Assembly (NCBI GenBank): GCA_017883205.1
Contig: JADGNZ010000004.1
Span: forward strand, 124,001-188,000
DNA: 64,000 nt
Direction of reading: 5' to 3'
Origin: Thermoanaerobaculia bacterium
Lineage (GTDB): Bacteria > Acidobacteriota > Thermoanaerobaculia > Gp7-AA8
In this document: in pieces, positions 1,051 to 56,173 of the stretch
Layout of the letters: every line of letters begins with the position of its first letter
How positions within the stretch are numbered: position 1 is the first letter of the stretch
Made by a program: the position numbers and the translations under genes
Notes under the pieces: model-generated
Database searches by the model: none
Seen by the model: the letters and a program-made list of their open reading frames with translations, nothing else
What the model was told of the DNA's origin: nothing

Positions 1051-1632
1051 TCACGTACTCTCGGACGTCGACGAACCCTCGTCCTCAGGATCTGCGGTGG
1101 GCGCCGAAGCCGGCGGCGAGGCGGGGGCCGGCGCGGCTTTCCTGCGGCGCCTGAAGCTCTTTAGCCGCGTGACCTCCTCCACATACGGCACGAGGATGGC
1201 GTTGGCCGGATCGCGCGCCAACCGCGTCCCGATGCTGTGCGCCTGCGAGGCGATGAACGCCAGGCGATGGCGGCGCATGAGGTTCGCGCCGGAGACGCCG
1301 TTCAGCATCATCCGCAGTTCGTCCTCGACCGCCGTCCAGCGGTTGGACTCGTCGGCCAACTGACGTACCTCCTCGGCCGGCTGGCCGACAGCCTGGGAGA
1401 CGATGTCCAGCGCGCCGATTGCGTTGATCGAGGCCTGCAAGACAGGATTGGATGTGCGTATGCCGTTGCGCAGCGCTGTACGCTGCGCAGCCGTCAGCGG
1501 CGTCATTTCGCTGATCCGCGCGCGTATGGCCCGCAAACCATCCACTACCTCGTCGGGCGTCATTGGCGGCGCCGCCTCCGGGAGGTCCTCAGCAGCAGAT
1601 CGATGTGTGCTTGTCTCCTGATCGGTTCTCAT
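1051..1632 (-). CDS. Orphan protein, paralogue of 55069-55638
   Basis: 193 residues, not recognised. The central part (about residues 25-160) is predicted helical and aligns without large gaps to the product of 55069-55638, at roughly 60% identity by eye. Shared blocks include QASIN, GALD-VSQAVGQPA, LNGV-GANL-RR and LARDPAN. The C-terminal tail is basic and then rich in Ala, Pro and Ser, so probably disordered. There is no signal peptide or membrane segment. No good ribosome-binding site precedes the ATG; the start is chosen because the N-termini of both paralogues line up. A 21-bp tandem repeat array sits 46 bases or more upstream of the start, as a 22-bp array does for the paralogue. Confidence 0.8.
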   Translation of the reverse strand: MRTDQETSTHRSAAEDLPEAAPPMTPDEVVDGLRAIRARISEMTPLTAAQRTALRNGIRTSNPVLQASINAIGALDIVSQAVGQPAEEVRQLADESNRWTAVEDELRMMLNGVSGANLMRRHRLAFIASQAHSIGTRLARDPANAILVPYVEEVTRLKSFRRRRKAAPAPASPPASAPTADPEDEGSSTSEST

Positions 1633-1677
1633 ACCGGTTTAGACGGGCGAGAAATCGGAAGGTTACGGCGAGCACCG

Positions 1678-1879
1678 GTGCACAGGAGCTGTGTCGCCGC
1701 GTACACACGCTGTGTCGCCAGGCACACGAGCCATGTAGCTGCGGACGCGAGCCGTGTCGATGCCTACACGAGCGGTGTTGACGTGTACACGAGCCGTGTT
1801 GCCGCGTACACGAGCTGTGTCACCGTATACACAAGCTGTGTCGCCATCTACACGAGCCGTGTCACCGGGTGCGATAGCG
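1678..1879. repeat. Minisatellite 1, 21-bp unit, about nine copies
   Basis: Nine imperfect 21-bp units run from 1691 to 1879, with a partial unit before them. A typical unit is GTGTCGCCGCGTACACGAGC plus one base. Each unit carries a small GTGT...ACAC inverted repeat. Because 21 is divisible by three the array stays open in several frames, but nothing suggests it is translated. It lies on the 5' side of the gene at 1051-1632. Confidence 0.9.
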
Positions 1880-3703: not shown

Positions 3704-3726
3704 AGAGTTCATGAAGAGTGGAGGGC

Positions 3727-3822
3727 AGAGATCAGAGATCGGAGATCAGATAAAGGAGATCGGAGATCAGGGACGATGTTTGTCTCTGATCTCTTCATCT
3801 CTGATCTCTGATCTCTTCTTAG
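3727..3822. repeat. GATC-rich GAGATCAGA hairpin 1
   Basis: An AGAGATC-rich arm is followed by a CTGATCTCT-rich arm, forming a long imperfect hairpin with about eight GATC tetramers. It lies at the 3' end of the Crp/Fnr gene ending at 3819 and probably serves as its terminator. Two relatives flank the other Crp/Fnr gene. Confidence 0.85.
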
Positions 3823-4588: not shown

Positions 4589-4653
4589 TCGTTTTGTGAC
4601 GAGCGCCCCACCCCGGGGGGTGGGAAGGCGAACATGGATAGGTGGGGTGGGGC

Positions 4654-4797
4654 AGAGATCAGAGAGAGGATCAGAGATCAGAGATCAGAGATCAGAGATC
4701 AGAGATCAGAGATCAAGAGATCAGAGATAAGAGAAAGAATCCTGATCTCTGATCTCTCGTCTCTGCTCCTGATCTCTTGTCTCTGATCTCTCCTTTC
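4654..4797. repeat. GATC-rich GAGATCAGA hairpin 2
   Basis: A run of nine-base AGAGATCAG units on one arm and CTGATCTCT units on the other, with 13 GATC sites counted by eye in about 140 bases. The stretch between the Crp/Fnr gene starting at 4535 and the next gene holds only this repeat and two operator-like sites. Confidence 0.9.
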
Positions 4798-27145: not shown

Positions 27146-27432
27146 ATGTCCACTTCAAATGAAGTTTCCGTTACACCCCACAGCAGTCGTATGCCGATTC
27201 CGCGCTGGCGCTCGTCGAAGAGCTTCGGGCCATGAGGGACAAGATCCCCAATTTGGTAATCCCGGAGACCAGAAACAGACGCCGGCGGCTGTCGGTCGCC
27301 GCCTCGGTTCCGCCGGAGTTTGTCGAGCTGACGTCGATGGCGGTCAAGACCCACGCGCCACTGGTCCGAGGAGGAGGCCAGGATCTGGCGCAGAAAAGCG
27401 ATCTGAAGGGCATGTTTGAAGAGGGGAAGTAG
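27146..27432 (+). pseudogene. Frameshifted small protein gene
   Basis: An ATG at 27146 has an excellent ribosome-binding site (GAGGAG) but the frame closes after 29 codons (MSTSNEVSVTP and onward). The -1 frame from about 27163 carries a protein-like stretch, ADSALALVEELRAMRDKIPN and then a basic segment and PPEFVELTSMAV, to a stop at 27430. Joining them at the run of four C residues near 27172 would give about 95 residues. It may be a decayed gene, an assembly error or, less likely, programmed frameshifting. The upstream region 26755-27145 shows no gene. Confidence 0.5.
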
Positions 27433-28472: not shown

Positions 28473-28484
28473 ATGAGTCATGAA

Positions 28485-28514
28485 ACCCGGGCGCGCCTGC
28501 GAACGCGCCCGGGT
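28485..28514. terminator. GC-rich hairpin matching the one at 55659
   Basis: ACCCGGGCGCG-CCTGCGAA-CGCGCCCGGGT has an 11-bp perfect stem. It can terminate the XRE gene from one side. Its stem is nearly the same as the terminator after the orphan gene at 55069-55638. Confidence 0.7.
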
Positions 28515-28531
28515 CCACAAACTTCTCTACT

Positions 28532-28630
28532 CTACGATTTCGGTGCCGTGGACGTTTCGTGGGCGGCTGGCGGAGCCGGCGGCGCAGGCGGTGTCGCCTT
28601 CTCGGGACATTCCGAAGTGTCGCGCTTGAA
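28532..28630 (-). pseudogene. Possible C-terminal remnant of the orphan family of 1051 and 55069
   Basis: The minus-strand frame ending at 28532 reads CPEKATPPAPPAPPAAHETS and then TAPKS-stop, close in composition to the Pro/Ala/Thr tails of the proteins at 1051-1632 and 55069-55638. It is placed between a 21-bp array and a GC hairpin, in the same order as the locus at 54-55.7 kb. The gene body is missing. The call rests on composition and context only. Confidence 0.35.
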
Positions 28631-28663
28631 GCAACGTGCGCGGCAAGAGCGCGCGGAGTGCGT

Positions 28664-28835
28664 AGCGTTGCCGCGCTGGGGCGAAGCGTTGCTACGCTCG
28701 GGCAAAGCGTTTCTACGCGGGGACGCAGCGTTACCACCCGGACTGCGCAGCGTTGCTATACGGAGCGTGGAGCATTGCTACGCGGAGGGCGCAACATTGC
28801 TGCGCGGAGACGGAGCGTTGCCGCATGCCGCGTTC
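28664..28835. repeat. Minisatellite 2, 21-22 bp unit, about eight copies
   Basis: Units such as AGCGTTGCTACGCGGGGAC plus two bases repeat about eight times with slight decay. A second small group of 21-bp units (GCGCAGACCTCGCGGCGTAT plus one base) lies at about 28890-28955. No gene is recognised across 28640-28950. Confidence 0.85.
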
Positions 28836-28954
28836 GGACGTGTGCATCCAGCGCGCAGCGTTGCGACGCGGGAGAGTGCGCACGCGCCGCACGGCGCAGA
28901 CCTCGCGGCGTATACGGCATACCACGCGGCGTATGGCGCAAACCTCGCGGTGGC

Positions 28955-29053
28955 GGAAGGGGTCAGGTCGAAACCGAAACTGACGACACCTCGCTACGAA
29001 CATTCCGCTCGATGCAGGCCGTCGTCAGTTTCGGTTTCGACCTGACCCCTTCC
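28955..29053. repeat. REPIN/MITE-like perfect inverted repeat A
   Basis: Arms of 33 bp (28955-28987 and 29021-29053) are perfect complements, beginning GGAAGGGGTCAGGTCGAAAC, around a 33-base centre. The GGGGTCAG terminal motif is shared with the element at 56079-56173. It lies just after the stop of the IPTL-CTERM gene. Confidence 0.9.
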
Positions 29054-38535: not shown

Positions 38536-38742
38536 GAGCGCCTTCTCCCCCACGCTTTTTGTGGGGGAGAAGGTGGCGAAGCCGGATGAGGGGGCGTTCC
38601 TACGAGTACGACATCCGTGCATGTGCCGCGGTTTCAGGCTGTTCGGACGAGGTGAAGTTGGTCGCTCTGCATATTTACTCCCCCCTCATCCGGCTTCGCC
38701 ACCTTCTCCCCCCGCAAAAAGCGCGGGGGGAGAAGGCGCTCG
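38536..38742. repeat. Inverted pair of TCCCCC hairpin repeats
   Basis: Left copy 38536-38594 contains CCTTCTCCCCCACGC, loop TTTTT and GTGGGGGAGAAGG, followed by TGGCGAAGCCGGATGAGGGG. The right copy (38688-38742) is its complement with a GCAAAAAGC loop. This is a repeat common in many genomes. The 577 bases between the TIR-STAND start and 38856 hold only this structure. Confidence 0.88.
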
Positions 38743-54202: not shown

Positions 54203-54238
54203 GTTGCTTAGGTCACTTGGGTTGCGAGCACGGTCCCG

Positions 54239-54568
54239 CACCGTGTACCCGACGGTCCCACACCGTGTACCCCACGGTCCCACACCGTGTACCCCACGGT
54301 CCCACACCGTGTACCCCATGGTCCCGCACCGTGTACCCCATGGTCCCGCACCGTGTACCCCATGGTCCCGCACCGTGTACCCCATGGTCCCACACCGTGT
54401 ACCCCACGGTCCCACACTGTGTACCCCATGGTCCCGCACCGTGTGCCCCATGGTCCCACACCGTGTACCCCATGGTCCCGCACCGTGTACCCCATGGTCC
54501 CACACCGTGTACCCCACGGTCCCGCACCGTGTACCCCATGGTCCCGCACCGTGTTTCCGTGGGTCCCG
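54239..54568. repeat. Minisatellite 3, 22-bp unit, about fifteen copies
   Basis: Fifteen units of CACCGTGTACCCCATGGTCC plus two bases, differing mainly at CATGG/CACGG and the last base (A or G). 22 is not a multiple of three, so the array reads through all frames and is not a protein repeat. Degenerate 21-22 bp units seem to continue to about 54720. It lies on the 5' side of the orphan gene at 55069. Confidence 0.95.
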
Positions 54569-54754
54569 CGGCATCGACTGTCGATCCTGCATCGTCTACC
54601 GCTCGCTCCACACCTTGGACGCCTCAGTCACGCACTACATCTCCTCGGTCCCGACGCGTCGAACCGTGGTTCGCGCAGGGTGACCCTCGTCCCGCTCGGC
54701 GAACCCTCGCGGCTGTAGGTTGCGAACATTCAGACGCTCGTCAAAAACTCGCAG

Positions 54755-54783
54755 TTGACATTACCAGTTGACTCTGCTAACAT
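54755..54783 (+). promoter_or_regulatory. Sigma-70-type promoter before the orphan gene
   Basis: A perfect TTGACA, exactly 17 bases and TAACAT (four of six). The transcript would have a leader of about 280 bases before the ATG at 55069. Confidence 0.6.
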
Positions 54784-54789
54784 CCGTAC

Positions 54790-55068
54790 CCTCGATTATC
54801 GAGATGGGAGTCGGCGCTCGTGAGAGCCCCAGTCTCCCGGCGGCCAACGGGTGAGAACGGCTGCGCTGAAAAGTGCGGTTTTCATCCCTGCGGGAGTTTT
54901 GAGCGCTGCTCCTCCTGCCGTGGGCTCTCGAAGTGTGCGCACTTCGGGGAAACATCAACCGGAAGAGCGGCGCGTTGCCGTCTTTTCCAGCCGGTGGCCG
55001 CCTGCACTCGTGCACGAAGTGCTCGTCGGTTCCTCCGGCCATACCCAATGGTCTTAAGGAGGACCATC
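54790..55068 (+). promoter_or_regulatory. Long structured 5' leader
   Basis: The leader contains CGAAGTG-TGCG-CACTTCG (54929-54946), a perfect 7-bp hairpin, and several GC-rich inverted pairs. It ends in AAGGAGG before the ATG. An in-frame open stretch from 54820 is probably not translated. A regulatory RNA is possible; no known riboswitch class is recognised. Confidence 0.4.
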
Positions 55069-55638
55069 ATGAATACCAACGACGAAACTATCAATACTCA
55101 AACGAACAAAACGGCCAGCGCTGTGGATGTTCCGCCGGCCGAACCCGCACTCACACCCGAGGAGTTGGTGGATGTGTTGCGGACCACGCGTGCGCGCATC
55201 GCCGAGGTTGCACCGATGACAGCAAGGGAGCGGAAGCTGCTGCGCCGTCGCGCAAACGCCTCCGATCTGATCGTGCAGGCATCGATCAACGTCATGGGCG
55301 CGCTCGACAACGTGTCGCAGGCGGTCGGCCAGCCGGCCGGCGATGTGCGGCGTCTGTCGGACGAAGCGAACCGCTGGTTGGTGGCAGAGGGTGAGTTGAG
55401 GGCGATGCTGAATGGCGTCGCCGGAGCGAACCTCATCCGCCGCCAGCGCATCGCGCTGATCGCCGGGCAGGCGTTCAACATCGGAACCCAGTTGGCGCGC
55501 GATCCGGCGAACGCCGTCCTCGTGCCTCACCTGGAGGAGGTCAAGCGTCTGAAGAGCATCAAGCGCCGCAAGCATGCGGCGCCGGCTCCCGCGACGCCGG
55601 CCTCGGTTCCAGAAACGTCGAAGACACCACAAACGTAA
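55069..55638 (+). CDS. Orphan protein, paralogue of 1051-1632
   Basis: 189 residues from ATG 55069, preceded by TTAAGGAGG. Helical core with TPEELVDVLRTTRARIAEVA, VQASINVMGALDNVSQAVGQ and LNGVAGANLIRRQRIALIAG, then a basic Pro/Ala/Thr tail. It matches the gene at 1051-1632 along its whole length. No family, signal peptide or membrane segment is recognised. A GC-rich terminator follows, then another small gene. Both paralogues have a 21-22 bp tandem array upstream, which suggests a shared genetic unit. Confidence 0.85.
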   Translation: MNTNDETINTQTNKTASAVDVPPAEPALTPEELVDVLRTTRARIAEVAPMTARERKLLRRRANASDLIVQASINVMGALDNVSQAVGQPAGDVRRLSDEANRWLVAEGELRAMLNGVAGANLIRRQRIALIAGQAFNIGTQLARDPANAVLVPHLEEVKRLKSIKRRKHAAPAPATPASVPETSKTPQT

Positions 55639-55658
55639 TCATGAATGGGCGGGAGGGA

Positions 55659-55686
55659 GACCGGGCGCGTGCAAGCGCGCCCGGTC
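55659..55686 (+). terminator. Terminator after the orphan gene
   Basis: GACCGGGCGCG-TGCAAG-CGCGCCCGGTC followed by ATTTCTCC. The stem is almost the same as the hairpin at 28485-28514. Confidence 0.85.
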
Positions 55687-55714: not shown

Positions 55715-56020
55715 ATGAGAACCAAAGACCGCGAACTTCTCAGGGACGAAACCGGACGGCACCTCGAGTTCATGTTCCGTAGCATCGGGCAGGTGAAACA
55801 GCTCTACCCCTGGCTGCGCCCCAATCAAAGCCACGCCCGGCTGCGCCGCGCCGTGGCGCGCCTCCGCTCCGGCGCGATGCCCAGCATCGATTCCCGGATT
55901 CCCGCCAGCGTCCTGGCCGACCTCCTCGAAGGATCGATCGAGCAGGACCGACGCCTCCGCGAGATCAACGCGGACACGGACGAGCTCAGGGAACTGGAGG
56001 AGAGGTTGAGAAGGAGGTAG
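55715..56020 (+). CDS. Small charged hypothetical protein
   Basis: 101 residues from ATG 55715 after a strong GAGGAGG site. Arg- and Glu-rich, predicted helical; family not recognised. RHLEFMFRSIGQVKQLYPWL and IDSRIPASVLADLLEGSIEQ look like ordered helices, and the end (RELEERLRRR) a short coiled coil. It may be cotranscribed with the orphan gene, although the hairpin between them would limit this. Confidence 0.7.
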   Translation: MRTKDRELLRDETGRHLEFMFRSIGQVKQLYPWLRPNQSHARLRRAVARLRSGAMPSIDSRIPASVLADLLEGSIEQDRRLREINADTDELRELEERLRRR

Positions 56021-56078
56021 GGGGGGAACGTACTCCGCTTCGAAGACTTGCCCTCTGGATGCTAACGCGTGATGTGGA

Positions 56079-56173
56079 GGGGGCAGACCCGAAGTGGAAG
56101 TGACGGAATTTGACTAGACCGCCTGGCCTGTGCGAAGGCCAATTCCGTCACTTCCACTTCGGGTCTGACCCCC
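56079..56173. repeat. REPIN/MITE-like inverted repeat B
   Basis: GGGGGCAGACCCGAAGTGGA (left arm 56079-56110) faces its complement at 56141-56173, with a single-base indel, around a 30-base centre. It shares the GGGTCAGACC terminal motif with element A and with both copies of the 117-bp repeat. No gene is seen in 56021-56421. Confidence 0.88.

Follow-up and report, generated by a model that had tools for sequence, protein, structure and literature searches.

Gene and array loci in the window

The window, that is the whole 64,000-nucleotide stretch of Thermoanaerobaculia DNA analysed here, contains a tandem array, a gene and a GC-rich hairpin that follow one another on the forward strand and are referred to as locus 3. 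The array (54229..54565) consists of 15 units of 22 bp, CACGGT-CCCRC-ACCGTG-TACCC, its extent being set by homology to a gene-less, or solo, copy at C91:115147-115483; TRF delimited it to 54232-54554 with 14.7 copies of a 22-bp unit, a score of 541 and 94% matches. A predicted sigma70-type promoter, TTGACA-N17-TAACAT (54755..54783, forward), is located between the array and the gene (55069..55638, forward), which encodes a predicted all-helical protein of 189 residues. The stop codon is followed by the hairpin GACCGGGCGCG-TGCAAG-CGCGCCCGGTC (55659..55686, forward), terminator-like and family-specific. Beyond it lies a short ORF of 101 codons (55715..56020, forward) that may or may not be part of the gene-array unit, similar ORFs being found 3' of two other family members.

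Locus 1 is on the reverse strand. The family gene (1051..1632, 193 residues) is preceded by a predicted ECF-type promoter, GTAACCTT-N-CGTC (1642..1666), roughly 10 nt before the start codon, and the promoter is adjoined by the end of an array of 21-bp units with ACAC..GTGT arms (1682..1867; 8.9 copies by TRF). Locus 2, also on the reverse strand, holds the final codons of a family gene together with a hairpin (28477..28602; stem CCCGGGCGCG...CGCGCCCGGG at 28486-28513) and a degenerate TRF array of 21/22-bp units (28660..28950). Judged from its sequence, locus 2 is a decayed cassette. A fourth member, truncated and of another subfamily, was found at 27178..27402 on the forward strand (profile positions 9-81). 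The sequence-only reading had described array, gene and hairpin as a unit recurring at three loci. All three were recovered as described, with locus 2 decayed, except that locus 1 has no GC hairpin, the best stem there being 8 bp; the tail-like remnant suspected at locus 2 was confirmed, as it aligns, hairpin included, to the 3' end of another family member in the genome (E 4e-24).

Several other repeats were observed. An inverted repeat, GGGGTCAGGTCGAAACCGAAACTGACGAC...GTCGTCAGTTTCGGTTTCGACCTGACCCC, adjoins the locus 2 array at 28960-29050, and a palindromic element of about 95 bp, GACCCGAAGTGGAAGTGACGGAATT..., is found at 56078-56172 and has some 20 other partial copies in the genome, on either strand. 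Paired heptamer arrays, CAGAGAT / CTGATCT, are present in both orientations at 3726-3816 and 4653-4791, with similar 7-bp arrays elsewhere in the genome, while REP-like hairpins, CCTTCTCCCC...GGGGAGAAGG, at 38541-38573 and 38702-38736 have many genomic copies. Long coding tandem repeats of 147 bp (GDFNGDGK-type; G000 C19:14076-15893, L206 and L211) are unrelated to the 21-bp arrays.

The protein family

The genome-wide search for further members that the sequence-only reading had suggested yielded 37 members by tblastn in the source genome (6.37 Mb, 105 contigs) and 66 with a profile built on 30 of these. In this fragmented metagenome assembly the true number is probably nearer 60, because some fragments at contig ends are probably halves of one gene. 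Many contigs, among them C85, C27, C72, C81, C54, C37, C92 and C70, terminate inside a family gene or a short way upstream of one, probably where arrays interrupted the assembly, which makes the copy number uncertain. Among 149 genomes of the class Thermoanaerobaculia the family is present in only two genera, and the relatives that carry it are metagenome genomes of Thermoanaerobaculia / Acidobacteriota.

No family assignment for the protein was obtained from Pfam, NCBIfam, PHROGs or PDB sequences. Comparison of 30 members with Pfam gave a single weak match, to Chap-C, and none of the 30 matched a nuclease or transposase family; among the anti-phage defence families of PADLOC, PDC-M17A was weakly matched by one of the 30 (E 0.0013). 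The AlphaFold model (pLDDT 87) is helical throughout, one helix having 53 residues. For this model Foldseek searches of the PDB and viral libraries returned nothing at E<0.001 and VIA-align a best Z of 4.5 at 9 A rmsd, unusable as a fold match. No recognised DNA-binding domain was matched. Residues 66-100 could be read as helix-turn-helix-like, but this was not adopted, given that residues 70-89 are the most conserved between close paralogues and that the fastest change in the folded part is seen at residues 50-69. All 74 close pairs had a dN/dS ratio below 1 (range 0.14-0.69, median 0.33), which indicates that the proteins are maintained by purifying selection.

Association of arrays with the gene in Thermoanaerobaculia

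In five related genomes, 59 of 76 full-length members were found to have a 21-bp-type array within 1.3 kb upstream, where about 5 were expected; the count takes in members whose upstream sequence extends to 1.3 kb and only strong arrays of 21-bp multiples at the TRF thresholds used. Downstream arrays were absent from all 84 members of the same five genomes. As the density of arrays in random regions predicts 0.06 per gene, the binomial probability of the association is approximately 2e-56. Several of the 17 members with no strong array in that interval have a weak array, an array further upstream (C1, C103) or, as later copies, a place in a tandem gene cluster with one common array (C2). In 326 kb from two relatives that do not have the family no 21-bp array was detected. 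Unit sequence tracks protein identity, which could be explained by common descent alone.

Promoters identified by regular expression were enriched between array and gene, the ECF type in 21 of 89 members (2.3 expected) and the sigma70 type in 16 of 89 (1.2 expected). Roughly 40% of the Thermoanaerobaculia members have such a predicted promoter, and in those the array is consequently outside the predicted transcript. Members of one subfamily (on C100, C3, C64, C49 and C75) have promoter and gene separated by a conserved leader of some 250 bp with many inverted repeats; the copy of this leader in the window had no Rfam match. A strong GC hairpin follows the gene in 78% of 85 members as compared to 13% of control stretches, and copies of its core, GGGCGCG...CGCGCCC, number 14 behind family genes against a single one elsewhere in approximately 1 Mb. 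The hairpin is probably a terminator in a family-specific form.

The association in a second class of Acidobacteriota

A weak match to the family came from G422, a genome of another class, whose paralogues carry 21-bp dyad arrays just 3' of the gene. A profile of these proteins retrieved relatives in 14 of 162 genomes of this second class, and the two protein sets, referred to below as class one (Thermoanaerobaculia) and class two, are homologous (hhalign probability 97.2%, E 4e-11). Arrays were found within about 280 bp downstream of the gene at 19 of 29 class-two loci and upstream at none, and three further loci showed 21/42-bp periodicity by autocorrelation. At one locus (L246) an intrinsic terminator separates gene and array. 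That such distant homologues repeat the pattern implies that the link between gene and array is old, and that geometry rather than sequence has been kept. No relatives were detected among phages, plasmids and viral contigs except for one plasmid gene on pTs417 of Ca. Thiodictyon syntrophicum (L247:5992-6459), which is homologous to the class-two genes and has no array. The expectation that members come with an array is borne out by the 59 of 76 above; a strong array within 1.3 kb is lacking at 17 class-one members, and any array at the Thiodictyon homologue.

The arrays could be upstream regulatory sites of separate transcription factors, the family being merely their commonest target gene, in keeping with class-one arrays abutting predicted ECF-type or sigma70-type promoters. 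This is improbable since class-two arrays are downstream of the gene, solo arrays have no such promoter alongside, and the unit sequences of paralogues differ to the point that one factor could hardly read all of them.

Unit geometry and dyad symmetry

Unit sequences vary between loci while the spacing stays. In class-one arrays an exact 21-bp spacing was measured for 483 of 537 units and a 22-bp spacing for 41; in class two 138 of 153 units are spaced at 21 bp. The claim that unit length and position are constant while sequences differ was thus upheld for unit length, position being conserved only within a class. A coding reading, in which 21 bp would correspond to 7 codons, was ruled out as periods of 22, 43 and 64 bp break the frame.

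With stems chosen from consensus units, the arm columns of 28 dyad-bearing class-one arrays were more uniform than the remaining columns (0.897 vs 0.752, Wilcoxon p = 8e-7), and the same was observed for arms and linkers in class two (0.82 vs 0.66, p = 1.6e-4). Only 37% of class-one arrays and 8 of 19 class-two arrays have a dyad in the unit consensus at p<0.05. Arm mismatches on the sense strand comprised 131 G-U and 162 A-C in class one and 91 G-U and 88 A-C in class two. The lack of a G-U excess points to selection on the symmetry of the DNA and not on an RNA stem.

This strand-specific wobble test, negative in both classes, bears on an RNA system modelled on type III toxin-antitoxin loci, in which transcribed array hairpins would bind or restrain the protein. 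A repeat array adjoining a small-protein gene, with units often able to form hairpins, speaks for such a system. Its chances are nevertheless slim: the predicted class-one promoter sits between array and gene, the terminator at L246 precedes the array, an RNA has no need for exact 21-bp spacing, and no type III toxin family was matched. In Rfam only a tRNA was found in the window and nothing convincing at the locus.

Neutral slippage satellites that persist by chance near an expanding gene family would account for the variable copy number and the drifting linkers, and satellites do exist in prokaryotes (PMC6749651). Given the conservation of the arms, the constant spacing, the replication in two classes and a gene-array association at P 2e-56, this explanation is disfavoured and hardly credible.

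Cassette duplication and solo arrays

Between recent paralogues, homology extends from the array to shortly beyond the hairpin and no further, which indicates that the cassette duplicates as a unit. A gene of 371-393 codons was observed directly 3' of the hairpin in a few members (L056 on C85; L188, which is G001 C237), and an M4-type metallopeptidase, recognised from sequence alone, follows a few members. The former gene is truncated or absent in recent cassettes, and a cargo gene 3' of the hairpin was ruled out as recent cassettes end before it. The proposal that array and gene are linked in function or in how they spread therefore fared well, in that the link holds for nearly all class-one members, recurs in the second class and extends to the joint duplication of cassettes.

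Approximately 15 arrays with no family gene were found in 400 kb of random DNA from the source genome, which translates to about 240 genome-wide (95% interval 134-394). The arrays are not confined to the family gene, which qualifies the sequence-only reading: about three quarters of those in the source genome are not near any family gene. Even so, 15 of the 21 solo arrays tested match one particular gene-linked array better than column-shuffled versions. The solo copy of the locus 3 array on C91 is 91% identical over exactly 54229-54565 and shows no flank homology. The promoter motif was absent at all 17 solo arrays examined, no neighbour gene common to solo arrays was found, and no target-site duplication was established.

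A selfish gene-satellite element resembling REPIN-RAYT, whose array is mobilised by the protein or by an enzyme acting in trans so as to leave gene-adjacent and solo copies, would explain why cassettes are duplicated whole with sharp ends, why most solo arrays match a specific gene-linked array and how the exact locus 3 array came to C91. We consider it unlikely, given an all-helical protein model with no nuclease or transposase match among 30 members and the target-site duplications that were not established; in addition, the class-two array has a constant place beside the gene, and spread alone leaves the strict 21-bp phasing unexplained.

Comparison with known systems

REPIN-RAYT systems combine a gene with its own palindromic repeats and dispersed copies in the genome, the repeat type tracking the gene copy (PMC3116915, PMC8266576). 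Dispersed gene-less copies are common to both systems, but the repeats described here come as phased tandem arrays with about 7-30 units each, dozens of copies of the gene are present, and the protein, all-helical in the model, has no Y1/HUH transposase match. The comparison hence fits the solo copies and not the protein.

Plasmid iteron origins and sopC-like centromeres consist of tandem sites spaced by about two helical turns and located next to the gene for the protein that binds them, a gene that is often autoregulated. The present arrays resemble iteron replicons in this spacing beside a gene. They differ from iteron and sopC arrays in being chromosomal and in forming dozens of paralogous sets per genome with differing unit sequences, and from an iteron replicon, ParABS or another partition centromere in that no Rep, ParB or known centromere-binding domain was matched in Pfam. 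Type III toxin-antitoxin loci also have tandem repeats beside a small-protein gene, but here the sequence argues against a transcribed array, which is placed outside the predicted transcript and shows no RNA signature, and no ToxN/TenpN/CptN-type or other toxin was matched in Pfam or NCBIfam. Unlike a CRISPR array, in which unique spacers separate identical repeats, the units are contiguous, 21 bp long and have similar linkers, and the gene has no Cas family match.

In the survey of Subirana and Messeguer (2019) transposed satellite families are rare in prokaryotes (PMC6749651). The arrays share with those satellites that they are non-coding, tandem and dispersed over the genome, yet they differ in having a dedicated partner gene family and a fixed 21-bp unit, and their estimated density of about 38 per Mb is above that of the bacteria tabulated there. 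In the open-paper literature no description of such a gene-array system was found.

Proposed role of the gene-array unit

Based on these sequence comparisons, the reading that we prefer, at a probability of roughly 0.55, is that of a two-part unit made up of a gene for a small all-helical protein and a satellite-like array of putative DNA binding sites. The arrays are probably sites for a dimeric protein, the product of the neighbouring gene. Binding of the protein to the repeats is plausible considering the dyads, the phasing at two helical turns and the purifying selection on the protein. Each unit is an inverted repeat that would suit a dimer, and the repetition of units at two helical turns (21 bp) would put bound dimers on one face and possibly allow them to polymerise, so that the protein would coat its own phased array. 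In Thermoanaerobaculia, where the array borders the promoter, binding would probably autoregulate the adjacent promoter; this cannot be the only role because in class two the array is on the other side of the gene. Solo arrays with a gene-linked unit would be further sites for that protein. The role is probably that of a local nucleoprotein platform, either regulatory or, by analogy with plasmid centromere or iteron arrays, chromosome-organising, and the unit would also spread within the genome. Weighing against this reading are the failure to match a DNA-binding domain or fold, the minority of arrays with a significant dyad, the large share of arrays away from any family gene, the array-less Thiodictyon homologue and the 17 class-one members where no strong array was located within 1.3 kb.

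A bolder reading, which we hold tentatively and at a little under even odds, is that of a new bacterial element in which nearly every member of an old family has a private dyad satellite with the 21-bp phase fixed and the sequence free. It would comprise gene-linked and solo arrays and, at the same tentative level, dozens of orthogonal protein-satellite pairs per genome, and might be seen as the bacterial counterpart of satellite DNA that has binding proteins of its own. With up to some 60 copies of the gene in soil acidobacteria, nearly all of them next to their own array, the family looks like one whose proteins each have a private and phased platform for binding DNA, an arrangement previously undescribed.

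The analysis ties a protein family with no named relative, across two bacterial classes, to arrays that are conserved in geometry only. Should the protein read its array, dozens of natural protein-DNA specificity pairs that have diverged under one architecture would exist in each genome. Bacteria would also possess satellite arrays that have partner genes of their own, and the spread of non-coding satellites in some prokaryotes becomes a testable question.
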